A DNA stretch of 64,000 nt from the NCBI RefSeq assembly GCF_021278025.1, contig NZ_JAIBHJ010000006.1:124001-188000 (forward strand). The letters are read 5' to 3'. Positions 38,667-50,030 of this stretch are shown piece after piece (position 1 is the stretch's first letter; every line of letters starts with the position of its first letter). The notes below the pieces were generated by a model, which worked only from the letters and a program-made list of their open reading frames with translations, did not search any database and had not been told where the DNA came from. Source of the stretch: Motilimonas sp. E26 (lineage in GTDB: Bacteria; Pseudomonadota; Gammaproteobacteria; Enterobacterales; CBDFNC01). Position numbers and translations under genes: made by a program.

Positions 38667-39272
38667 AGATACCTAATCGAAAATGCATTCGCGCGAGCAA
38701 ACAATGGCTCGATTGTAACTAAATTACAGTCGCCATAAAAGAGTCACACCATAAGTAACCCTTAAAAATACATGCTTTTTACTGCCCATTAAGTGCAGTG
38801 CCTTTCAGGTTGTATGCTTTTTTGTTCTTAGCTGAGTTTTTCGGCATCAGTGGTTGTTAACAATGTTAACAAGTAGAATTGTTATCCTCATGCTGTATTC
38901 GCCTGTAGACCGTTTCATTTGTTGTGATTTTGCTCCGACTTTAACTGTCCGTAAATTAACAAAATCAGCTTTTTTACTATCTATTTCTAATCACTTTAAA
39001 GTAAATAATGATACTTTAGATTATTACTGGTTAATTGTATCTTGTTGTATTTAATTGATTTTATTATTTCTTCTTTGTCTTTTTTATTATACTTTATGTC
39101 TTTAATTTATTATTTTATGTTTTTGGTGAATTCAGAGCCAAATGTCATTTTTGTTCCAGCCGAATTAAGTTAATCAAATGTAAACTTGACCTAAATAGAA
39201 TGGTTATGGCTGTTAGATGCGATAAGACAATCAGCCAGTTACATGCTTCTTATCGTTAGGCTCAAGGATGAA
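38667..39272. other. AT-rich intergenic region between pflA and the cytochrome gene
   Basis: About 600 bases hold no gene I can support. The half nearest 39050-39125 is very T-rich. A near-palindrome is listed separately at 38854. The ATG at 39243 is in frame with the cytochrome gene but has no ribosome binding site. Such AT-rich DNA before an accessory block could be an H-NS-type target (inference). Confidence 0.4.
38854..38872. promoter_or_regulatory. inverted repeat, candidate operator
   Basis: TTGTTAAC-AAT-GTTAACAA has perfect 8-bp arms and a 3-base spacer. It lies about 190 bases upstream of pflA, divergent from the cytochrome gene. It looks like a dimer-binding site; the protein is unknown. 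Confidence 0.4.
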
Positions 39273-40802
39273 ATGTTGGTGTATAAACGCAAAACAAGCT
39301 GGCCTTTGGTGGTCGTCCATCTAATTGGCTTACTTGCTTTACTTCTGAGTTTCTTTTCAGGATTGCGGTTAGCGCAAGACAGCCTGTTTGCCTTGCCTAT
39401 GCCGCAATGGTTGATGCCGCAAGGTGATGTCTATTTTTGGCATGGTATTGGTGCATTGCTTTGGATTTTTGTGCTTATCGGATACGCCGGATTTGCATTA
39501 TTTCGCAATAAACCATTAAGTGCGGTGAAATCACGGCATTTGATTATTCAGCTGATTCGCGTTCTTACTCCGTTAGCTGTTATCTCTGGAACACTGCTTT
39601 ACTTGAGTCCAGCTTGGCTCAGCTACCTTCTACTACTTGAAGGCCATTACTATATTGCGTTACTGATGATGTTAGTTGTGACTTTACATGTTGTGGTGCA
39701 AATACAGGCTGGGCTAAAACGCACTTGGCCTATTTTTCTACCACAGCGGGCTACGTTATTGGAATGCCTGCCAATGTTAGGTGGCGTTGTTGTCATTGTG
39801 ACTTGTTTCTTGTTCTATCCCGCAATCACGCCAAAATTAGTCAGTCTGCGCACAACTGACAACATTGTGATTGATGGACTTAATAACGAATGGGATAGGG
39901 CTGAAAAAACGACGCTATTGGTTACTCAAGGCGCTAATCAAGCAACCAGTGTGACGGTTACTGCGCAGTCTATGCACGATGGTGAAGTGGTCTATTTTTT
40001 GTTTCAGTGGCCTGATGCTAAAGCAGATCTAATGCATTTACCTTTGGTTAAGACTGCACAAGGTTGGCAGGTAGAGCATCAAGGCTTTGAAGTTGATGAT
40101 GAAATCACGTTCTATGAGGATAAATTTGCACTGATGTTGAGTGAGTCCGCTCGGATCGGCGGAGCAGGTAGCATTCACCTAGGGCCAGCCCCTATCAATG
40201 GTGCGCCGCCATCGCGCTCCGGTCGTGGTTACCATTATATGAAGCAGGGTATGGTAGATGTATGGCAATGGAAGTCGGTGCGGTTAAATCATATGTCAGT
40301 GCTTGATGATGATCATTTTGGTCAACCTGCGCCACCATGTGATTTTTGTCCTCGCTATACCGCTGGCTATCAAACTGATCCAAAAGAAGCAGGTGGCTAT
40401 CGCATGAACTGGCAATGGTTTAAGCAAGAGCAGGTTTTACCGTTGCGCTTACCTAAGCAAGCAGCATGGCAGCGCCTTGAGCAGCGCGACCAATTTGCCA
40501 TTAGTTGGTGGGATACCCAGCCTTACAGTGAGCATTTAGATACTTATCCCATTGGCACCCGTTTACCTAGCGTGTTATGGATGGATAGTTTTGAAGGTGA
40601 CCGCGCTGATGTGCAAGCAAAAGCACATTGGCAAGACGGTGTATGGAGTTTAGAGATAGCACGCAATCGTGATACGGGGTCTAAGTTCGATTTGCCCTTG
40701 GTGAATGGCTTGTATTTGTGGCCGGCGACCTTTGACGCGAGCCAAACTCGCCACAGTTACTCGCAACAACCTTGGCAGCTAGTGATGGAGCAAAAAGGAT
40801 GA
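39273..40802 (+). CDS. membrane cytochrome b fused to an ethylbenzene dehydrogenase-type haem domain
   Basis: From the ATG preceded by AAGGA the protein has 509 residues. Residues 1-190 form about five transmembrane helices with well-placed histidines (VVVHLIG, YFWHGIG, LEGHYYIAL, VTLHVVV), typical of a di-haem cytochrome b. From about 205 a periplasmic part follows with the EB_dh/DMSO-reductase gamma-like pattern: VIDGLNNEWDRA, HDGEVVYFLFQWPDAK, FYEDKFALML and a C-terminal GVWSLEIAR. A CDFC pair (about 353-356) is extra. It probably moves electrons across the membrane. The next gene overlaps it by four bases. Confidence 0.75.
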   Translation: MLVYKRKTSWPLVVVHLIGLLALLLSFFSGLRLAQDSLFALPMPQWLMPQGDVYFWHGIGALLWIFVLIGYAGFALFRNKPLSAVKSRHLIIQLIRVLTPLAVISGTLLYLSPAWLSYLLLLEGHYYIALLMMLVVTLHVVVQIQAGLKRTWPIFLPQRATLLECLPMLGGVVVIVTCFLFYPAITPKLVSLRTTDNIVIDGLNNEWDRAEKTTLLVTQGANQATSVTVTAQSMHDGEVVYFLFQWPDAKADLMHLPLVKTAQGWQVEHQGFEVDDEITFYEDKFALMLSESARIGGAGSIHLGPAPINGAPPSRSGRGYHYMKQGMVDVWQWKSVRLNHMSVLDDDHFGQPAPPCDFCPRYTAGYQTDPKEAGGYRMNWQWFKQEQVLPLRLPKQAAWQRLEQRDQFAISWWDTQPYSEHLDTYPIGTRLPSVLWMDSFEGDRADVQAKAHWQDGVWSLEIARNRDTGSKFDLPLVNGLYLWPATFDASQTRHSYSQQPWQLVMEQKG

Positions 40803-41422
40803 AGTCTTTAATGCTTTGTATTTTAGTTGTAACAATGATTAACAGTGCACAAGGCGCTGAGTTACGCTTCGCTAAGGTACATCAGCAAGGGCAGATCATT
40901 TCACCTAAATCGGGACCATGGCATTGCGTTCTCGATAAACAAACTGGCTTACTTTGGGAGGTGAAATCTGCTCAAGAGGGGGCGCACTATTATAAGTCAA
41001 CTTATTCATGGTGGGAGCGGCAAAGCTCGCAAGGTAGCGAAAAGGGTGGCAGTTGTGCGGTAGGAGATGGCTTTGTGCCTTGTGACAGCCAAGATTTAGT
41101 GGACTTATACAATCAATTGGAATTGTGCGGCGTCAAAAATTGGCGAGTTCCGCAACTTGATGAGTTATCAAGTTTAGTGAATTCATCTGCCTATCCCGGC
41201 CAACCATTGGTACCCGCTGGCCTGTTTCCATTAACCGTTAAAGGACCTTATTGGACTCAGACCTGGAGTGACGACAACAAACAATTAGCCATGGTGCATT
41301 TTGGCTCAGGAGAAGTTGGATTTTTGAAACCCAGTGGGGCGGCATGGCTGCGTTTAGTGAGCAGTGTAAAGGGTCATTCCTCTTCAGCTAATCAGCAACA
41401 CAATCAAGACAAGGAGCAGTAA
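40799..41422 (+). CDS. secreted DUF1566 (Lcl C-terminal) domain protein
   Basis: The 207-residue product begins with a signal peptide (MKSLMLCILVVTMINSAQGA). The rest is a DUF1566 domain: DKQTGLLWE near 45-53, then NWRVPQLDELSSLV near 115-128 and YWTQTWSD near 151-158. This domain occurs in secreted or surface proteins, often as a possible glycan- or adhesion-related module; its role here is unknown. Its ATG overlaps the cytochrome stop codon (ATGA), and the next gene follows after one base. Confidence 0.75.
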   Translation: MKSLMLCILVVTMINSAQGAELRFAKVHQQGQIISPKSGPWHCVLDKQTGLLWEVKSAQEGAHYYKSTYSWWERQSSQGSEKGGSCAVGDGFVPCDSQDLVDLYNQLELCGVKNWRVPQLDELSSLVNSSAYPGQPLVPAGLFPLTVKGPYWTQTWSDDNKQLAMVHFGSGEVGFLKPSGAAWLRLVSSVKGHSSSANQQHNQDKEQ

Positions 41423-41423
41423 G

Positions 41424-44006
41424 ATGCAAAGTCGAAAAAAACAGGGTTTTCGTTTGGCAATGTTGCCTACGTTAGTCATGGCCAGTATGAGTATTACCGC
41501 GCAGGCGGCCACCGAGCAAGTGCGCGTGGTGTGGGATAGTGATCCTGCACGCAATGCTGTGATTGGTTTTTCACCAAAAGGCCAATCAAGTAACGCGTAT
41601 GTATTATATGGACAAAATGCAGATGAAACTAAATGGCAACGTAAAAGCCCATCAGCGTCTTATGTATTCGATGCAACATTAGAAAGTCAGTTCGTGCGCT
41701 TGAGTAACTTAGTGCCTGATAGCACAGTGTATTTTAAAGTATGTGACGACAGCGGTTGTGGTCCGAATTATTTATTCAAAACCGCGGCCAATGTTGCATC
41801 TGACTTTACTTTTGTCGCCGGTGGTGATTCGCGAAGTAACGCATCCACACGTCGCTCAGGTAACCAACTGGTGAGTAAAGTTCGGCCATTGTTTGTTATG
41901 TTCGGTGGTGATTTAACCTACGGTAATGAAGCGCATGAAGTCTCTCAGTGGCTTACAGATTGGCAAAGCACTTTTAGTCAAGATGTAGTGAATGGCAAAA
42001 GCTATCTTGCCATTCCTGCGTTAGTGCCAACAGTCGGTAACCATGAATCCAATGATCATACCTTTATGTGTAAGGTGTTTGGTATTGACGCAAACAACAA
42101 TGGCCGCTGTGAGTTAGATGACACCTATTATGCCTTTAACGTTGGCGGCAACCAGTTGCGTGTTTATACCCTAAACACAGAATTTCGAAGCTCAGGTTAT
42201 CAAACTCAGTGGAGCCGACAAAAAAGTTGGCTTAGCAGTGATTTGTCAGGAGCCGGAAGCAGCGCTAAGTGGCGTATCAGTCAATATCATAAGCCAATGT
42301 TTCCTCGTACCACTGCCAAAGGCTACGTAAACAGCAAAATGTTTGAATGGGCTAGTGACTTTTACAACAAGAAAATGAACTTAGCAGTGGAGTCGGATAG
42401 TCATCTAGTGAAGTATTCTTGGCCGGTGAAGCCTGCGAGTAATGACATGGAGCAAGTCACCGCGGGAACGGTGTTTATTGGTGAAGGTAGCTGGGGAGCC
42501 CCAACACGTCCCGCTGATCGTTACTCGCCTTGGATTGCTGACCAAAGCAGTTTTGCACAGTTTAAGATCGTGCAAATGAAAGGCGAGGAAATGTGGATCC
42601 GCACTGCACGCTTTTCGGGTAATCCGCAAGCCCTTAGTCAACAGGCGCGAGAGAATGATCCATTAGCATTGCCAACCGGTTTAAGTATTTGGAATGCAAA
42701 TGGTATCGGTGATGTTTATCGCCTTGGTCAAGACAGCAGTGGTCGCACTGTGGTGGCAGATGCAGCGATTGCACCGGAAGCTAAGTTTGTCGCCAGTTGT
42801 AATCAACTAGCCTGTCGTTTTGATGGCACAAGCTCGGTTGGGGCAGACTTAAGTTATAGCTGGAATTTCGGTGATCAGAACAGCGCATCAGGCGCGCAAG
42901 TTAGCCACAATTTTAGCAGTGCTGGGCAATATTCAGTTACGTTATCGGTACAAGATGGTAAAGGCCAATCGGCCCAATTTAAGCAATCGGTTACAGTGCA
43001 AGCGCAACCCGATGAAGATAGGGTTCTGATTAACAATCAAGCGAAAACCAACTTATCGGGTCTGAAAGGGCAAGATCAAGTGTTTACCTTTACCAATGAA
43101 ATGGTCAGTCAGCTAAGTATTACGACACAAGGTGGTAGTGGTGATGTTGATCTATTAGTGAAATTTGGCGCGGTGCCAGCAGGGGCGGATGCAGATTGTC
43201 GTCCTTATAAAAATGGTAATAATGAAAGCTGTGATATAGCCAATGCCAAAGTGGGGACTTACTACATCGTGCTCAATGGCTATGACAATTACAGTGGTGT
43301 TTCGCTTAAAGTCGTTGCTAGCCAAGGTGGCAGCAATCAACCTCCTGTTGCAAACTTTACCAGTACGGCCCAAGGCTTAAGTTTGAACTTAGTTGATAAC
43401 AGTAGCGACAGCGATGGTGAGGTGACGTCTTGGCAGTGGTTACTTGGTGATGGTTCATTGGCGAATGGTCAAGTGGTTAGCCATAACTACCAAGCTGCTG
43501 GCAATTATACCGTTAAGCTCACGGTGACTGATGATCAAGGAGCGAGTCACAGTGTTAGCAAAACCATTAACGTTGCTTCATCAGGCGCTGGTAACACCTG
43601 GTCGAGCACTGCGGTTTATGAAGCTGGCGACCAAGTTACCTACCAAGGTGAGGTCTACCAAGCTCAGTGGTGGAACAAAGGCGTTGAGCCCGGTGCATCA
43701 CAATGGGGACCATGGCAGCTAATTAGCGGTGGCACCTTACCGACACCAACTCCTACTCTAGCCCCCACACCAACGCCAACGGTGGCCCCAAGTGTTACCC
43801 CTACTGTCATTCCCACCACCACGCCGACACAAGCGCCGGGTAATGGCTGCACCAGCGAGAGCTGGAACGCCCAAGCTTCTTATGGTCCTGGTGATGAAGT
43901 CAGTTATAACAATCAACGCTGGAAGGCGACGTGGTATAGCACCAACTTAGCCCCTGGTTCTAGCAATGCTTGGAGCAGTTGGGAAAATCTAGGTAGTTGT
44001 AATTAA
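41424..44006 (+). CDS. secreted metallophosphoesterase with PKD, PPC and CBM5/12 modules
   Basis: The 860-residue protein has a signal peptide (1-28), a fibronectin-like purple-acid-phosphatase N-terminal domain (30-122), a metallophosphoesterase domain (125-395), PKD (452-526), PPC (533-632), PKD (640-717), CBM5/12 (724-768), a Pro/Thr linker (772-806) and a second CBM5/12 (809-860). Metal ligands visible are Asp135, Asp163, Tyr166, Asn206-His207, His289 and His327; the first His of the usual GHxH is Asp325. It is likely exported and bound to chitin or similar polymers. Substrate is unknown. Confidence 0.85.
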   Translation: MQSRKKQGFRLAMLPTLVMASMSITAQAATEQVRVVWDSDPARNAVIGFSPKGQSSNAYVLYGQNADETKWQRKSPSASYVFDATLESQFVRLSNLVPDSTVYFKVCDDSGCGPNYLFKTAANVASDFTFVAGGDSRSNASTRRSGNQLVSKVRPLFVMFGGDLTYGNEAHEVSQWLTDWQSTFSQDVVNGKSYLAIPALVPTVGNHESNDHTFMCKVFGIDANNNGRCELDDTYYAFNVGGNQLRVYTLNTEFRSSGYQTQWSRQKSWLSSDLSGAGSSAKWRISQYHKPMFPRTTAKGYVNSKMFEWASDFYNKKMNLAVESDSHLVKYSWPVKPASNDMEQVTAGTVFIGEGSWGAPTRPADRYSPWIADQSSFAQFKIVQMKGEEMWIRTARFSGNPQALSQQARENDPLALPTGLSIWNANGIGDVYRLGQDSSGRTVVADAAIAPEAKFVASCNQLACRFDGTSSVGADLSYSWNFGDQNSASGAQVSHNFSSAGQYSVTLSVQDGKGQSAQFKQSVTVQAQPDEDRVLINNQAKTNLSGLKGQDQVFTFTNEMVSQLSITTQGGSGDVDLLVKFGAVPAGADADCRPYKNGNNESCDIANAKVGTYYIVLNGYDNYSGVSLKVVASQGGSNQPPVANFTSTAQGLSLNLVDNSSDSDGEVTSWQWLLGDGSLANGQVVSHNYQAAGNYTVKLTVTDDQGASHSVSKTINVASSGAGNTWSSTAVYEAGDQVTYQGEVYQAQWWNKGVEPGASQWGPWQLISGGTLPTPTPTLAPTPTPTVAPSVTPTVIPTTTPTQAPGNGCTSESWNAQASYGPGDEVSYNNQRWKATWYSTNLAPGSSNAWSSWENLGSCN

Positions 44007-44044
44007 TGATAAAAATTTATGGTCCTAGGTGCCATAAACACTCG

Positions 44045-44072
44045 CGTTACCTTAGGTTTGCCTGAGGTAACG
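44045..44072. repeat. 12-bp stem-loop before the astacin gene
   Basis: CGTTACCTTAGG / CCTGAGGTAACG (one wobble pair) with loop TTTG lies 46 bases before the protease ATG. No T tract follows. It may be a processing or attenuation hairpin between the two secreted-enzyme genes. Confidence 0.6.
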
Positions 44073-44117
44073 TATGAAAAAAAACTGAAGGCAACTCTGC
44101 CTAACAAGGATGATAAA

Positions 44118-45584
44118 ATGAACTTTAAAATGACCCCCATTGCAGTTTGTATTGCGCTGGCACCACTTGCAGCAAACGCTGTCACAGAGGCAGAAGTAAA
44201 CGAAGTGTTTACTTCCCAAGGTGAGCAAATTGCTACAGTGATCGGCTCAAATCAAGAGATTGAATATCAGCTTAAACAGCTAGACGGAAAGCAATTAGCC
44301 GTTTATGAAAGCGATATTATTTTAGGTGAGCATGAAGAAATGCAACAAATGGGCGCTGTGCCTCTAGAAATCCAGTCTTTTAGCAGCAATATGCAAGCTA
44401 AAGCGTCTTGGGGCGGACGCACAACTTGGCCCAATGGTGTGGTGCCTTATGTGATCACGTCAGGCGTACCTGCCGGAGATGTCACAACCATTAAAGCTGC
44501 GATGAAATGGCTTGAGGACGCGGCTGATGTTACTTTTGTAGAGCGCAGTAACCAAAGCAGCTACATCAATATTATTCGTGGTGACGGTTGTTATTCGATG
44601 GTGGGGCGCACTGGGTCTAAGCAAGACTTATCTATCGGGAGCGGCTGTGGTACACGGGGTATTGTTGCCCATGAGTTTTTACATGCACTCGGTTTTTATC
44701 ATGAACAATCTCGAGCAGATCGTGATCAGCACGTGAATATTCATTGGGAAAATATCAGACCGGGCATGGAGTCTAACTTCAAGCTAGGCGCAAGTGTTAC
44801 CGCATCGGTTGGCCCATACGATGTGCGCTCAATTATGCATTATGGCTATCGTGCATTTAGTAATAATGGCCAGCCAACCATTACCTCTAAAAACCCGAAT
44901 GTACCAAATTCGGCATTAGGCCAGCGCACCGCGCTAACGGATTTAGATATTTCGGCATTACAAACCATTTACGGTTTGCCAAATGGCGGCACTAAGCCAA
45001 CGCCGGAGCCAACGCCAATACCTAATAGTAAGCTGAATAATGGCCAAACTGTTTATGCCGCTGGTAGCAAAGATAACAATGTGTTCTACAGCATTGACGT
45101 ACCAAGCGCGAGTCAGCTGACGGTATCCATTGCGGGTGGTTCTGGTGATGCGGACCTATATGTTAAGCAAGGTAGCAAACCAACAACAACTAGTTACGAT
45201 TGTCGACCATATAAAGACGGTAACAGTGAATCTTGTACCTTAGAGAATGCCTCGGGTACGGTGCACGTTATGTTACGTGGCTATGCTGATTTTGCTAATG
45301 TGGGCTTAACAGCAAGTTATACCGCAGGTACAAAACCAACACCTGCGCCGACACCTGTGCCAACCATTACACCAACACAACCGCCTGTGCCTACCACTGA
45401 GCCAACGCCGCCACCATCAGGTGCTTGTGGTGAAAACTGGAGTGCCTCAGCAGTTTATACTGCAGGTAATTTAGCTGTTGATGGCAATAAGCAATATAAA
45501 GCTAATTGGTGGACGAAAGGTGATCAGCCTTCGAGTAACAATGGCCAATGGCAAGTATGGTCTTTTGTTAAAAACTGTAACTAA
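44118..45584 (+). CDS. secreted astacin-family (M12A) zinc protease with PPC and CBM5/12 domains
   Basis: The 488-residue protein starts at the ATG followed by a signal peptide (MNFKMTPIAVC... ending about 21). The astacin catalytic domain spans 96-286 with HEFLHALGFYHEQSRADRD (zinc ligands His185, His189, His195, catalytic Glu186) and the Met-turn SIMHYG (Met240, Tyr242). A propeptide region lies between 22 and 95. Then come a Pro/Thr linker, a PPC domain (305-402), a second linker and a C-terminal CBM5/12 (435-488). The PPC and CBM resemble those of the gene before it. Confidence 0.93.
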   Translation: MNFKMTPIAVCIALAPLAANAVTEAEVNEVFTSQGEQIATVIGSNQEIEYQLKQLDGKQLAVYESDIILGEHEEMQQMGAVPLEIQSFSSNMQAKASWGGRTTWPNGVVPYVITSGVPAGDVTTIKAAMKWLEDAADVTFVERSNQSSYINIIRGDGCYSMVGRTGSKQDLSIGSGCGTRGIVAHEFLHALGFYHEQSRADRDQHVNIHWENIRPGMESNFKLGASVTASVGPYDVRSIMHYGYRAFSNNGQPTITSKNPNVPNSALGQRTALTDLDISALQTIYGLPNGGTKPTPEPTPIPNSKLNNGQTVYAAGSKDNNVFYSIDVPSASQLTVSIAGGSGDADLYVKQGSKPTTTSYDCRPYKDGNSESCTLENASGTVHVMLRGYADFANVGLTASYTAGTKPTPAPTPVPTITPTQPPVPTTEPTPPPSGACGENWSASAVYTAGNLAVDGNKQYKANWWTKGDQPSSNNGQWQVWSFVKNCN

Positions 45585-45629
45585 TAAATATTGTCAGCTG
45601 TTCAATAATATTCAATAGATTATAAGTCT

Positions 45630-45656
45630 CAGGGCGGCATAGTTCGCCCTGTTTGA
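45630..45656 (+). terminator. possible terminator after the astacin gene
   Basis: The stem CAGGGCG / CGCCCTG with an 8-base loop is followed by a short GTTTG. It is a moderate candidate. Confidence 0.55.
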
Positions 45657-45747
45657 TTGACTTTATCAAAACTAACTGCTCAAATTCTCCGCTCATGTTT
45701 GCTACGGCGACAACCATTACGTTAATAGAATTAAGTCAAAGGATATG

Positions 45748-48700
45748 ATGAAAATTCTTTATCTGTGTTGCTACTTATTGTTTTTTATTTGCTTCAAGCT
45801 GGCAGCCTTTCCTTATCAAGGGGCGCACCACTTTGAATCAATTGGCCTAGAGCAAGGTTTGTCTCAAGCGACAGCGGTTGCTATGGTGCAAGACAGTCAG
45901 GGATATATTTGGATTGGTACACAAGACGGTCTCAATCGTTATGATGGCCACAATATTGTGCATTACCGTTATTCGGCCAATGATGAGCAAAGTTTATCTG
46001 GCAATTATATCTCTAGCTTGGCCCTTGATAGCCAGCAACGCCTTTGGGTGCTGACACCCCAAGGTCTCAATTTATTTCAACAGCAAAGTAATAATTTTAA
46101 ACGCTTCAATGTGCCAATATCGGCCCATCAACGTAATGCGACTAGCCCTTGGCAGTTAAAATCTGATCATCAAGGCCGGCTTTGGATAAAAAGTGCTGGT
46201 GGAATGAGTGTTTTTGACCCTGACTCAGGGAAAGAAACCATATTACCGTTACCTGACGCTCAGTTACCTATCTCTGATTTCATTTTTAGTTCAGATAATC
46301 GTTTATGGTTAACGAATCAGAGCCAATTGTATCTATGGTCAAAAGAGCGCCAGCAACTAGTGCTGCAACCGCTAAAGCTTCGAGATAACGATGAAATCAT
46401 TACTCTAGCTAGTCCAGATGGTGCGTCCTCTGCAATATTATGGTTGGTAGGCAATAAAGGGTTATATCGGTTTGATGCAGAGAGCCAGCTTACGCAATTC
46501 TACGACAAACAGACGCTCGGTATAAATGCTAAGTTGACGGATTTAACTTTTGATAGTGATGGAACGCTATGGCTAGGGAGCCAGTCCGGTTTGTATGTAT
46601 GGTCAACGGCGATGGTGCGCAGTCAACTAGTGCATCATAAAGTGGGTGATCGAGTGGGGCTTAAAGATCAATATATTCGTCAATTGTATTTTGACCGTAC
46701 TGGGGTGTTGTGGATTGGCACGCGGTTGGGGGGCGTCAGTAAGTTAACACCACAAGCAGCGCAGTTTCACTTATTGAATCAGGCACAAGGGATGATGCAC
46801 AGTAATGTCGTGATGTCGTTGGCCAAGTTTGGCTCGCAACTGTGGCTAGGCACAACGGATGGCGCCATTAGCCAAATACAGTTGGATCGACCAGAGGTTC
46901 AGAGATGGCGGCCGCTGTCGGAAACGGGGCAAGATCTGGGGGTCATCGTTGATATCGAAATGGATAAGCAAGGTGATATCTGGTTCGCTTCAAACCGTGG
47001 CTTAACAAAATACCTGCCAGAACAACATTCGTTTCAGCCCTATCCCATTACTGGGCCATCAGGGGAGCGAGACAACTATATTAGCCAATTGTTTACATTT
47101 CGGGGGCAACTTTGGCTGGCTAGTGCGCGTTATGGGTTAGCAAAATATGACGAACAGACGGATAATTTTGTTTTTTTAGAGCAGGGCCGTTCGGTTGTTT
47201 TACAAAATATATCCAGCGTACTCGTGGACGGTAACCAGCTTTGGCTGGGGTCGTTCGACGGTCAACTATGGCAACTAAGTTTCACGGATGACGTTCATTA
47301 TGAGCTTCAAAAACATGAGCTTAATTATTTAGGTCAAGCCCTCAAACTCGACATTATCACAACACTTTACCAAGATGCCGATGGCTCTATCTGGGTAACT
47401 AACCGTAATGGTTTAATTATTTATCAACCGGGTAGGGGAGATGTAAAGTTTTTAAGTAGTCAAAATGGCTTCCCAGACGGCGCATACTATGAAGTGTTAC
47501 CTGATGCGCAAGGCAATATTTGGGTGACCTATGCTCATGGCATATTACAGCTTAACCAGCAAGGTGAGTTGATGGGGCAGATTGATAGCGAAAGAGGGCT
47601 ACCGGTAAATGAGTTTAATGGTGCCAGTGCACAAAGTGATGACGGTACATTATTTCTAGGCAGTGTTGATGGCTTATTGGCATTTAATATCAGCCAGCCC
47701 CTAGCTGTTACTTCGACATTACCTGTGGTTTTCACTGATATTCATACCCAATTAATGCAGCATAACACCCAAGGTACAAGGCAATGGCATAAAGAAAACG
47801 GCTATCAAAGTGAACTGGCGTTATCTTATGATAATGCCACTATTAAATTGGGTTTTTCGGATCTTGATTTTGGCCATTCTCCTTCTTATTTTCGTTATCG
47901 ACTCAATGGCTTAGATCAACATTGGAATCTCGCTGAGCTGGGGCATAACGAAGCCATATATCATCAGTTAGATCCTGGTGAGTACCAATTTGAAGTGGAG
48001 GTGAGTAAGCACCCTGAGCAATGGACAGGCTTAACTAACATGCTACCTATTACTGTTGCTACCCCTTGGTGGCGAGAATGGTGGGCATATGTATGTTATT
48101 TAAGTAGTTTGTTACTTATTGTTTACTGCTATATTCGCTTTAGGTTAAGGGTTGCGGAGCAGCAAGCACGTAAGCTTAGAGTTCAAGTAAAGCAGCGTAC
48201 CCGAACGATCGAACAGCTGTTACGACAAAAGGTGCGTATTTTTACCCATGTTGTGCATGATCTCAAAACGCCTTTAGCCTTGATTTTAGCGCCTGTTCAG
48301 CTTTTAAAGCAAGAGGTTAGAGAGTCGAGTCAACTGCAGCAATTAACCCTTGTTGAGATGCAAACAACACAGTTGTTGGAGCAAATAGATCGGCTTGTCA
48401 AATTAACCGACTCTAGCTCAATAAATAACGCCCCAGTTGTGGGAGTTTATGATTGGCAAAGGATTATTAACTCTGTATTAGAGCAATTAAGCCATTCCTT
48501 TGAGCTGAACCGTGCGAAAACAAAGTTAGATATAAATGGCCCACTATGGGTCAAAGGCTCCGTTTCTGAACTAGAGGTGATCGTATTTCATTTATTGACT
48601 TACCTTCTTACGCTTGCGAAAAAAGGTGCTGTTATTTCAACCTATGGACGCACTTGGGACCAAGAAATTAAGATTTGGCTAAGTGTGCAGGGGCTTTGTC

Positions 48701-49686
48701 TTGGGCAAGCACAGTGTCAAGCTTTGTTAGCGCCATTTCATGAGATCAGTGTGGTGGATGCGCTAAGGCTAGATGAATTTGGTTTAATGATGTTAAAAGA
48801 GCCCCTCAGTAGCTTGCATGGGGTAATGACGGTAGAGCATCGCCGTCAACAAAGTTATATTGTGGTTACTTTACCGCTGGCAAGGCAGCAAAGTGAGCAT
48901 AGGAATACCAATGCCGTTAGGGGGGATTTGGCTTCTTGGTTAAAACAAAAGAAACCCGTTGATCTCAATGCTGCGCCGATCTTACTTTTAGCAACTTCAA
49001 GTAAAAACATGGCCGATTTTCTTCGTAGTTTATTTAGTGAAGAATACTCCGTGCTGCTTGCCAGTGATCATCAAGCCACCTTATCACTGGCGCAAAAACA
49101 CTTACCCAAAGGCATTATTTTAGATTTTGACGATGCCATCGATCTTTGTGCCAAGCTAAAAAGTAATGCCACACTAGGACAAATTCCACTATTGATGCTC
49201 ACCACTGAAATGGATAAAGAGGCAAAGCTAGCTGCGTGGCAGTCAGGCGTGTATCAAATTTTACATAAACCCTTTGAGTTGGCAGAGTTAAGGGTGTTGG
49301 TGTCCAATATGATGCAGCTTAGCGTTCAGGTAGAGCAGGAGGCTGATGTTGGTGAAAAATCGTCTTTTATGGCTCGTTTAGATGGCATTTTAGCGTTGGA
49401 TTTTGCCGATCCAGAGCTAAACATTAATTTGATCGCCGATAAAATGGGCACTAATACTAAGCAGCTACAGCGTAAGTTAAAACAAGCGGTTGATATGACC
49501 CCAAATGAATACTTGCGTCAATATCGCCTAGCAAAAGCGCAGCAAATGCTTGCCGAGCCGCTAACCATTCAAGAGGTTGCGCTAAGGTGTGGCTTTAATT
49601 CACCGAGTTATTTTACCAGTTGCTATAAGAAAGCGTTTAAGCAAACGCCAAAACAGGCACAGGTTCAAGGCGTAGAAGTTGAATAG
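45748..49686 (+). CDS. hybrid two-component regulator with beta-propeller sensor, degraded kinase/receiver and AraC output
   Basis: The 1,312-residue protein has a signal sequence, a periplasmic sensor of repeated Reg_prop blades (such as GYIWIGTQDGLNRY), a Y_Y_Y domain near 700-770, a transmembrane helix near 778-797, a HisKA helix with the phospho-His in VVHDLKTPLAL near 837, a HATPase-like region, a receiver-like domain (about 1076-1195) and a C-terminal AraC helix-turn-helix (VALRCGFNSPSYFTSCYKKAF). The kinase N-box reads HLLTYLLTL, and the receiver lacks the acidic pair. It follows the secreted enzymes and may control them (inference). The second ATG fits the AAAGGA spacing better. Confidence 0.85.
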   Translation: MKILYLCCYLLFFICFKLAAFPYQGAHHFESIGLEQGLSQATAVAMVQDSQGYIWIGTQDGLNRYDGHNIVHYRYSANDEQSLSGNYISSLALDSQQRLWVLTPQGLNLFQQQSNNFKRFNVPISAHQRNATSPWQLKSDHQGRLWIKSAGGMSVFDPDSGKETILPLPDAQLPISDFIFSSDNRLWLTNQSQLYLWSKERQQLVLQPLKLRDNDEIITLASPDGASSAILWLVGNKGLYRFDAESQLTQFYDKQTLGINAKLTDLTFDSDGTLWLGSQSGLYVWSTAMVRSQLVHHKVGDRVGLKDQYIRQLYFDRTGVLWIGTRLGGVSKLTPQAAQFHLLNQAQGMMHSNVVMSLAKFGSQLWLGTTDGAISQIQLDRPEVQRWRPLSETGQDLGVIVDIEMDKQGDIWFASNRGLTKYLPEQHSFQPYPITGPSGERDNYISQLFTFRGQLWLASARYGLAKYDEQTDNFVFLEQGRSVVLQNISSVLVDGNQLWLGSFDGQLWQLSFTDDVHYELQKHELNYLGQALKLDIITTLYQDADGSIWVTNRNGLIIYQPGRGDVKFLSSQNGFPDGAYYEVLPDAQGNIWVTYAHGILQLNQQGELMGQIDSERGLPVNEFNGASAQSDDGTLFLGSVDGLLAFNISQPLAVTSTLPVVFTDIHTQLMQHNTQGTRQWHKENGYQSELALSYDNATIKLGFSDLDFGHSPSYFRYRLNGLDQHWNLAELGHNEAIYHQLDPGEYQFEVEVSKHPEQWTGLTNMLPITVATPWWREWWAYVCYLSSLLLIVYCYIRFRLRVAEQQARKLRVQVKQRTRTIEQLLRQKVRIFTHVVHDLKTPLALILAPVQLLKQEVRESSQLQQLTLVEMQTTQLLEQIDRLVKLTDSSSINNAPVVGVYDWQRIINSVLEQLSHSFELNRAKTKLDINGPLWVKGSVSELEVIVFHLLTYLLTLAKKGAVISTYGRTWDQEIKIWLSVQGLCLGQAQCQALLAPFHEISVVDALRLDEFGLMMLKEPLSSLHGVMTVEHRRQQSYIVVTLPLARQQSEHRNTNAVRGDLASWLKQKKPVDLNAAPILLLATSSKNMADFLRSLFSEEYSVLLASDHQATLSLAQKHLPKGIILDFDDAIDLCAKLKSNATLGQIPLLMLTTEMDKEAKLAAWQSGVYQILHKPFELAELRVLVSNMMQLSVQVEQEADVGEKSSFMARLDGILALDFADPELNINLIADKMGTNTKQLQRKLKQAVDMTPNEYLRQYRLAKAQQMLAEPLTIQEVALRCGFNSPSYFTSCYKKAFKQTPKQAQVQGVEVE

Positions 49687-49707
49687 CGTGGTATCTAGAG
49701 AAAAGTG

Positions 49708-49833
49708 ATGAAAATTAAAACCGTTTTCAAGTATGTTGCGAAGGCAATGTTGGTTTTTGCTGGCATTGCGGGTGTATTTGGTTTATTTGACGTAAAAATA
49801 GTGCTTACCTCAGAAGTGCCAACAGGTTATTAA
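49708..49833 (+). CDS. small hypothetical membrane protein
   Basis: The 41-residue product has one hydrophobic helix (AMLVFAGIAGVFGLF) after a lysine-rich start and a short tail. GAGAAAAG precedes the ATG by four bases. It begins 21 bases after the hybrid regulator stop, so co-transcription is possible. No family is recognised. Confidence 0.5.
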   Translation: MKIKTVFKYVAKAMLVFAGIAGVFGLFDVKIVLTSEVPTGY

Positions 49834-49997
49834 TGAGTCAAAAATATTGAGTGGCTCAGATTGGTAGTTTTTTCACTTAGTTGGTGTCTATCTTAAAAAG
49901 AAGCGCAGTTTCAATAGAGGTTCCAGTCAAGGCGATAAATGAACAAGGCCCGCTATTGCTATATCTTTAATCAGTATTGGGCTTGAAAAGCGGCTAT

Positions 49998-50030
49998 AAA
50001 AAAGCCTTGCTGAGCAAGGCTTTTTGTTTT
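49998..50030. terminator. bidirectional terminator downstream of pflB
   Basis: An 11-bp stem (AAAAGCCTTGC / GCAAGGCTTTT) with a 3-base loop has A and T tracts on both sides. It serves the converging regulator and pflB units. Confidence 0.9.

Follow-up and report, generated by a model that had tools for sequence, protein, structure and literature searches.

In canonical hybrid two-component systems (HTCSs) of the Bacteroides type, a sensor, a histidine kinase, a receiver and a helix-turn-helix (HTH) DNA-binding domain are fused in one chain. According to the available part of the report by Gao et al. (PMC11253607), the S/CHIP motif of the receiver is a latch that keeps the HTH inactive without phosphate, and substitutions in the latch of BT4124 lead to phosphorylation-independent DNA binding. 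The same text presents BT4236 of B. thetaiotaomicron, an HTCS with Gln for the phospho-His and a deviating CSIP latch, which is suggested to be phosphorylation-free; it is the nearest printed precedent that we found for the protein described here. As far as the available portions of their reports go, two Vibrio proteins offer further likenesses: TfoS, a regulator acting from the membrane with an HTCS-type periplasmic sensor (PMC7564644, PMC11856585) and reported to be without a two-component signature domain (PMC7564644), and ChiS of Vibrio cholerae, a hybrid kinase that sits in the membrane and itself binds DNA (PMC8092284), through a domain of another type than the one found here. The present work concerns a window of 64,000 nucleotides from Motilimonas sp. 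E26 (contig NZ_JAIBHJ010000006.1, positions 124,001 to 188,000), in which a single open frame on the plus strand (45745-49686) encodes a regulator of 1313 amino acids. We consider it likely, judging from its sequence and its relatives, that this protein is a conserved pseudo-HTCS turned into a membrane-tethered one-component regulator, which would work without phosphotransfer. Its features, in positions of the window, are the following.

45745..49686, + strand: whole gene, regulator of the hybrid two-component type whose kinase and receiver are dead (intact open reading frame, Pfam architecture)
45814..47709, + strand: periplasmic propeller sensor, residues 24-655 (six Reg_prop stretches in Pfam, 108 bits)
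47710..48060, + strand: Y_Y_Y domain, residues 656-772 (Pfam 31.3 bits, best stretch 716-761; outer bounds set by hand)
48067..48147, + strand: predicted hydrophobic membrane-spanning stretch, residues 775-801 (sequence inspection only)
48223..48459, + strand: DHp/HisKA-like domain, residues 827-905 (HisKA 28.1 bits)
48256-48258, + strand: phospho-His site His838 (Asn instead in M. eburnea)
48460..48894, + strand: dead ATPase (CA) domain, residues 906-1050, with N-box H949/Y953, G1 V981 and G2 L1009-E1011 (motif table)
48895..48975, + strand: CA-receiver linker, residues 1051-1077, with RGDLxSWLKQxKP common to M. eburnea only (15-column windows)
48976..49329, + strand: pseudo-receiver, residues 1078-1195, with T1084/S1085 in place of the acid pair; Asp1127, Thr1153 and Lys1175 kept
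49177..49188, + strand: lost latch between receiver and DNA-binding domain, GQIP, residues 1145-1148 (S/CHIP in most HTCSs; motif from the available part of PMC11253607)
49357..49662, + strand: AraC-type HTH_18 DNA-binding domain, residues 1205-1306 (HTH_18 76.7 bits)

The Pfam order of the protein (six Reg_prop stretches, Y_Y_Y, HisKA, Response_reg, HTH_18) is that of an HTCS, and it is in domain order and length that it resembles the canonical members. It differs from them by the lack of a HATPase_c match (none in Pfam at E<=1) and by the loss of the receiver acids and of the S/CHIP latch. The first-pass annotation, made from the letters alone, had described a hybrid two-component regulator with a degraded kinase and receiver, and every string that it quoted was found at its place. 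The phospho-His motif is present (VVHDLKTPL, 836-844, with His838). The N-box (FHLLTYLLTL, 948-957) is without both Asn, H949 and Y953 standing where relatives carry them, the G1 box is gone (VQGLCLGQ, 981-988, with V981 in place of the G1 Asp), and T1084 and S1085 replace the receiver acid pair in ILLLATSS (1079-1086), while Asp1127 (in IILDFDD, 1124-1130), Thr1153 and Lys1175 are kept. Four points go beyond that annotation: the G2 glycines are also gone (L1009-E1011), the beta3-alpha3 loop after Asp1127 is shortened, the latch is lost, and relatives in the dead state exist. Displaced substitutes, which had been named as the outcome that would speak against decay, were not seen at the level of the sequence: the only Asn residues between 906 and 1050, at 909, 922 and 931, precede the N-box, and no acid follows beta1 until D1091.

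The protein is thus without an ATPase domain bearing N, G1 and G2 boxes, and its receiver, with the acid pair replaced and Asp, Thr and Lys present, does not carry the full residue set of an HTCS. Since the architecture is that of an HTCS but the catalytic features are not, we class it as a pseudo-HTCS and not as a full member. Its receiver is a pseudo-receiver, recognisable as a receiver (Response_reg 31.7 bits) yet short of residues that are key to phosphotransfer (acids missing), in which the phosphorylatable Asp itself is kept. In the available text of PMC12632262, a pseudo-histidine kinase is a histidine kinase-related domain without one or more histidine kinase functions; the E26 protein, with its ATP-binding residues missing, is compared with that class by sequence alone, and the definition rests on function. 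Weak whole-kinase matches to NCBIfam models (VanS 36.7 bits at 801-1044, CreC 36.2 at 832-1045, LvrA 51.9 at 813-1198) indicate that the CA stretch is a relative of kinases and not foreign. With our own CA profile, E26 scored 17.7 bits, M. eburnea gave no match and M. pumila reached 133.8 bits, its row being inside the profile.

The regulator was found in three of the four genomes of the family. Its relative in Motilimonas eburnea (49% identity) has lost the N-box, G1, G2, both acids and the phospho-His, with ANELKNPL at the His site; in Pfam, its HisKA (20.0 bits) and Response_reg (22.3 bits) are both under the cut-off, and there is no HATPase_c at E<=0.001. In contrast, the Motilimonas pumila relative (38% identity) is intact and has all Pfam domains of a canonical HTCS (HATPase_c 88.6, Response_reg 78.7 and HisKA 42.7 bits). 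The three regulators group with 100% support in a tree of ten sequences, out of eleven aligned. The E26 genome also encodes an intact paralog (C1:131835-135767, 28% identity to the regulator). In E26 this paralog (L031) adjoins an M4 metalloprotease with CBM_5_12, and a similar reading frame lies next to the M. eburnea paralog (L033).

Such a loss is rare among the 94 hybrid regulators that we aligned and scored at ten catalytic positions, counting Asp or Asn as valid for G1, Asp or Glu for the first acid and Ser or Thr for the Thr. All ten residues are kept in 90 of them; the exceptions are M. eburnea with eight missing, E26 with five, L202 with two (receiver only) and L049 with one (G2). The set comprises 12 proteins from the genus and a first genome search, 50 from a scan of genome contigs with two propeller patterns, in which the best 80 of at least 578 relatives were kept, and 32 from fetched regions. 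The latter came from a search of the Y_Y_Y region in 394 genomes, with 60 places hand-picked from the matches listed (frame length 1298-1514) and 20 further regions added, 80 in all. Entry required an HTH above 25 bits and more than 600 amino acids, which gave 96 proteins; two, both TfoS-like, were dropped for having no DHp and receiver matches, so that the survey is blind to proteins lacking these domains. In four pairs of the 94, identity exceeds 95%. For comparison, the available part of PMC12632262 gives a background of single losses in which the His is missing in 0.9% of HisKA domains and the Asp in 2.0% of receivers.

Despite their decay, the dead domains do not behave like sequence drifting freely. 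Between E26 and M. eburnea, identity is 53% in the propeller, 38% in DHp, 31% in CA, 39% in the receiver (REC) and 62% in the HTH (55% for the HTH against M. pumila), as opposed to 71, 86, 78, 92 and 95%, respectively, in the pair of intact paralogs. Kinase and receiver are thus the least conserved large parts of the dead pair but stand above the propeller in the intact pair, a reversal of constraint. In simulations of neutral decay at the observed third-position divergence (2000 runs), identity reached at most 0.17 in CA versus 0.31 observed, 0.29 versus 0.39 in REC and 0.27 versus 0.38 in DHp, and an average of 3.6-6.8 stops arose per domain, none of which is seen in the real ones. At differing sites the hydropathy correlation is 0.56 in CA, 0.53 in REC and 0.32 in DHp (neutral 99% values 0.17, 0.28 and 0.29), and the codon ratio (p1+p2)/2p3 is 0.70-0.72 in these three domains, 0.52 in the propeller and 0.38 in the HTH. 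Two segments are specific to the dead pair and hardly present in M. pumila, namely 961-981 (YGRxWDxEIKxW) and the linker 1054-1078 (RGDLxSWLKQxKP), where 15-column windows show 60-73% identity to M. eburnea and 7-13% to M. pumila; segment 1165-1190 is also shared by the pair, less sharply. Much of the acceleration took place on the branch shared by E26 and M. eburnea (CA 1.93, DHp 1.44 and REC 0.89, compared with 0.41 for the propeller and 0.33 for the HTH), and on E26's own branch CA (0.34) and REC (0.25) are close to the propeller (0.31). By these comparisons, which involve few sequences, short domains and saturated third positions, the dead domains are kept beyond neutral decay.

The same data bear on the possibility that the regulator is simply a dying gene, losing its function in these lineages while the reading frame alone survives. 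The regulator and the two cassette neighbours tested are absent from the closest genome (G002), where the site is empty, and at 49% identity the regulator has diverged further than the astacin (80%), the phosphoesterase (69%) and the intact paralog (76%). Against this, the frames are open for 1313 codons in E26 and 1336 in M. eburnea, the HTH and the propeller are constrained, CA, REC and DHp all exceed the neutral simulation, and the dead pair has segments 961-981 and 1054-1078 in common that M. pumila does not share. We therefore regard a dying gene as unlikely.

The state of the latch bears on whether the protein may be a working regulator freed from phosphorylation. The latch reads CHIP in M. 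pumila, GQIP in E26 and GPIP in M. eburnea; its His, present in 90 of the 94 hybrid regulators, is thus gone from E26. It is lost in all three proteins with lost receiver acids, compared with one of the 91 others (Fisher value 3e-5, with sequences counted singly and at most two independent losses, since two of the three proteins are close relatives). The third, L202 (G033:C4:3668000-3672500), has a HATPase_c match, DG at the receiver acid pair and SAIP at the latch, a separate loss of receiver and latch. The one other protein, L218 (G006:C41:27500-32000), has the full catalytic set and a latch reading STIP, the latch His being gone without decay of the receiver. An HTH-side latch Asp ('S/CHIP-DK') was rejected as an indicator, as it is missing in 26 of the 94. 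Compared with BT4236, for which the text available names the deviation of His and latch alone, the Motilimonas pair has also lost ATPase residues and receiver acids, and E26 keeps the His.

The latch also weighs on a second alternative, in which His838 or Asp1127 receives its phosphate in trans from a different kinase, such as the intact paralog, so that the protein would remain a phospho-switch with outsourced catalysis. His838, Asp1127, Thr1153 and Lys1175 are indeed kept, and the intact paralog lies in the same genome. However, neither species retains the receiver acids, M. eburnea is without the His, the latch is lost, and the DHp is 30% identical to that of E26's own paralog; we find such trans-phosphorylation unlikely.

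Structure prediction of the kinase and receiver, proposed as a check in the first-pass annotation, gave a divided answer. With 46 alignment rows, AlphaFold2 (AF2) modelled residues 798-1313 with a predicted local distance difference test score (pLDDT) of 83.4 and a predicted template modelling score of 0.41, and both kinase and receiver folds were seen. Structural matches are PleD for the receiver part (Z 20.9, root-mean-square deviation 1.5, 128 aligned) and ThkA for the CA part (Z 19.8, deviation 2.4, 147 aligned), and the Foldseek matches of the model include the kinase regions of DivL and RetS. Since 44 of the 46 rows do not come from the dead pair, these folds may reflect the relatives, and a run given nothing but the dead pair failed to recover the fold (pLDDT 41.6); a kinase and receiver fold in the E26 protein is plausible on the strength of the first model. 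DivL-type pseudo-histidine kinases and pseudo-receivers offer a parallel in keeping the fold while missing catalytic residues. DivL acts on other proteins of a kinase pathway; unlike it, the E26 protein has kinase, receiver and HTH in one chain, with every catalytic step affected. That the protein retains weak enzyme activity, with displaced or substitute residues holding ATP and Mg, is very improbable: His and Asp are kept, the first AF2 model (with relatives in its alignment) has Bergerat-like and receiver-like folds and whole-kinase NCBIfam models match weakly, but CA has no Asn past residue 931, no acid lies between beta1 and D1091, the G2 glycines are gone and M. eburnea has lost the His as well.

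A comparable fate of the kinase was found in TfoS-like proteins. Of 41 genomes from a Vibrio-like family (a label taken from genome form and architecture) that were searched for one, 15 gave a match (L219-L233). No TfoS model is among the 25 best NCBIfam matches per protein, hence the name TfoS-like. Fourteen of these proteins have a decayed kinase between the transmembrane segment and the HTH. In a search of 15 sequences, a CA profile built on 51 HTCSs matches 12 of the 14 at E<1e-4, the best value being 5.5e-14, with 0.0023 and 0.016 for the remaining two, and Pfam HATPase_c occurs, under the cut-off, in three of five tested. The phospho-His is at its aligned place in none of the 14, in a DHp alignment that is weak; the second N-box Asn is kept in 4, the G1 Asp in 8, the G1 Gly in 14 and the G2 Gly in 1. 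In the fifteenth, L233, both DHp and CA are intact (HATPase_c 77.9 bits). No receiver was found in any of the 15. Sensor, predicted transmembrane stretch and DNA-binding domain in one chain are shared with the E26 protein, which differs by keeping a receiver-like domain at 1078-1195. The route to a one-component regulator thus appears to have been followed on two or more occasions, as the TfoS-like proteins carry a decayed CA and no receiver. Among the papers listed in our literature searches, and in passages of PMC11856585, PMC13316777 and PMC10269533, we saw nothing about TfoS carrying a remnant of a kinase, although a description may exist in print.

Taken together, the absence of the phospho-His in M. 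eburnea, the constraint that is kept, the lost latch and the TfoS precedent lend support to the suggestion of the first-pass annotation that the signal is passed, probably, by a change of shape rather than by phosphate transfer. The periplasmic propeller may bind a product of degradation, whose source is perhaps chitin-associated material, and the resulting change in the sensor dimer would travel through the transmembrane stretch and the DHp coiled coil to the two HTHs, with the dead CA and receiver serving as a scaffold. The HTHs would bind promoters from the membrane with no phosphate involved, the regulator's own hydrolase cassette being the likely, predicted target. DNA binding may be constitutive, with only activation gated, or may itself be gated.

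Several observations weigh against a conserved regulator that works without phosphotransfer. His838, Asp1127, Thr1153 and Lys1175 all persist in E26, HisKA and Response_reg still pass their Pfam cut-offs, narrowly (28.1 versus 26.9 and 31.7 versus 30.2 bits), and the NCBIfam kinase models span the CA stretch, weakly and far under their cut-offs. Only two dead sequences are known, and the failure of AF2 to recover a fold from these two belongs here as well. The DHp on E26's own branch (0.64) is twice the propeller (0.31), the M. eburnea branch is still fast (CA 1.43, DHp 1.36 and REC 1.15 versus 0.54 for the propeller), and the residual identity could in part be inherited from before the decay. 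The closest genome does without the regulator, which makes it dispensable, and three-way alignments upstream of the cassette and of the regulator, together with a repeat search, revealed no operator recognisable as shared. Finally, the TfoS precedent is not clean: as told in the available parts of PMC7564644 and PMC11856585, TfoS depends on ChiS, which it needs at native levels and which over-expression bypasses.

Four genes precede the regulator on the same strand and form a cassette with it.

39243..40802, + strand: EB_dh domain protein (Pfam 124.3 bits)
40772..41422, + strand: Lcl_C domain protein (Pfam 66.3 bits)
41424..44006, + strand: phosphoesterase-like protein with PKD, PPC and CBM_5_12 (Pfam)
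44019..45584, + strand: astacin (M12A) metalloprotease with PPC domain (Pfam)

This secreted-hydrolase cassette of 11 kb (38771-49997) sits between pflA and pflB in E26. M. eburnea and M. pumila have it as well, the phosphoesterase (69 and 64% identity, respectively) and the astacin (80 and 70%) being recognised by sequence and the EB_dh and Lcl_C genes by position and size only; in M. pumila one extra gene, for a trypsin-like protein, lies within the set. In M. eburnea it also lies between pflA and pflB, with about 13 kb more that include the intact paralog. G002, which has no full-length relative of the regulator, the astacin or the phosphoesterase, has pflA and pflB adjacent; its match to the E26 stretch ends at 38770 and resumes at 49998, about 130 bases separating the two parts. 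In M. pumila pflA and pflB are likewise adjacent, with the cassette located on a different contig, which ruled out its regulator as a syntenic ortholog. These empty or adjacent sites and the separate place of the M. pumila cassette point to gain, movement or loss of the 11 kb as a block, in whichever direction. A stretch at about 45566-45586, conserved between E26 and M. eburnea, was rejected as an operator because the astacin reading frame ends there.

Beyond this locus, we see an even chance that HTCSs repeatedly become one-component transmembrane regulators through a kinase that dies in place. The Motilimonas pair would stand midway, with domains dead and latch released, and the TfoS-type proteins would be the receiver-free end point with a fossil CA, the dead kinase and receiver being a mechanical or binding module and not junk. 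This would offer a possible origin for TfoS-type regulators, described in the available text as being without a two-component signature domain. The latch model of HTCSs gains an evolutionary test, as in the few cases seen dead receiver chemistry goes with a dead latch. Moreover, a single genus offers a natural series, from intact to dead with the His to dead without it, which lets one ask what phosphorylation adds to a fused sensor, kinase and regulator, and how a sensor may drive DNA binding directly.

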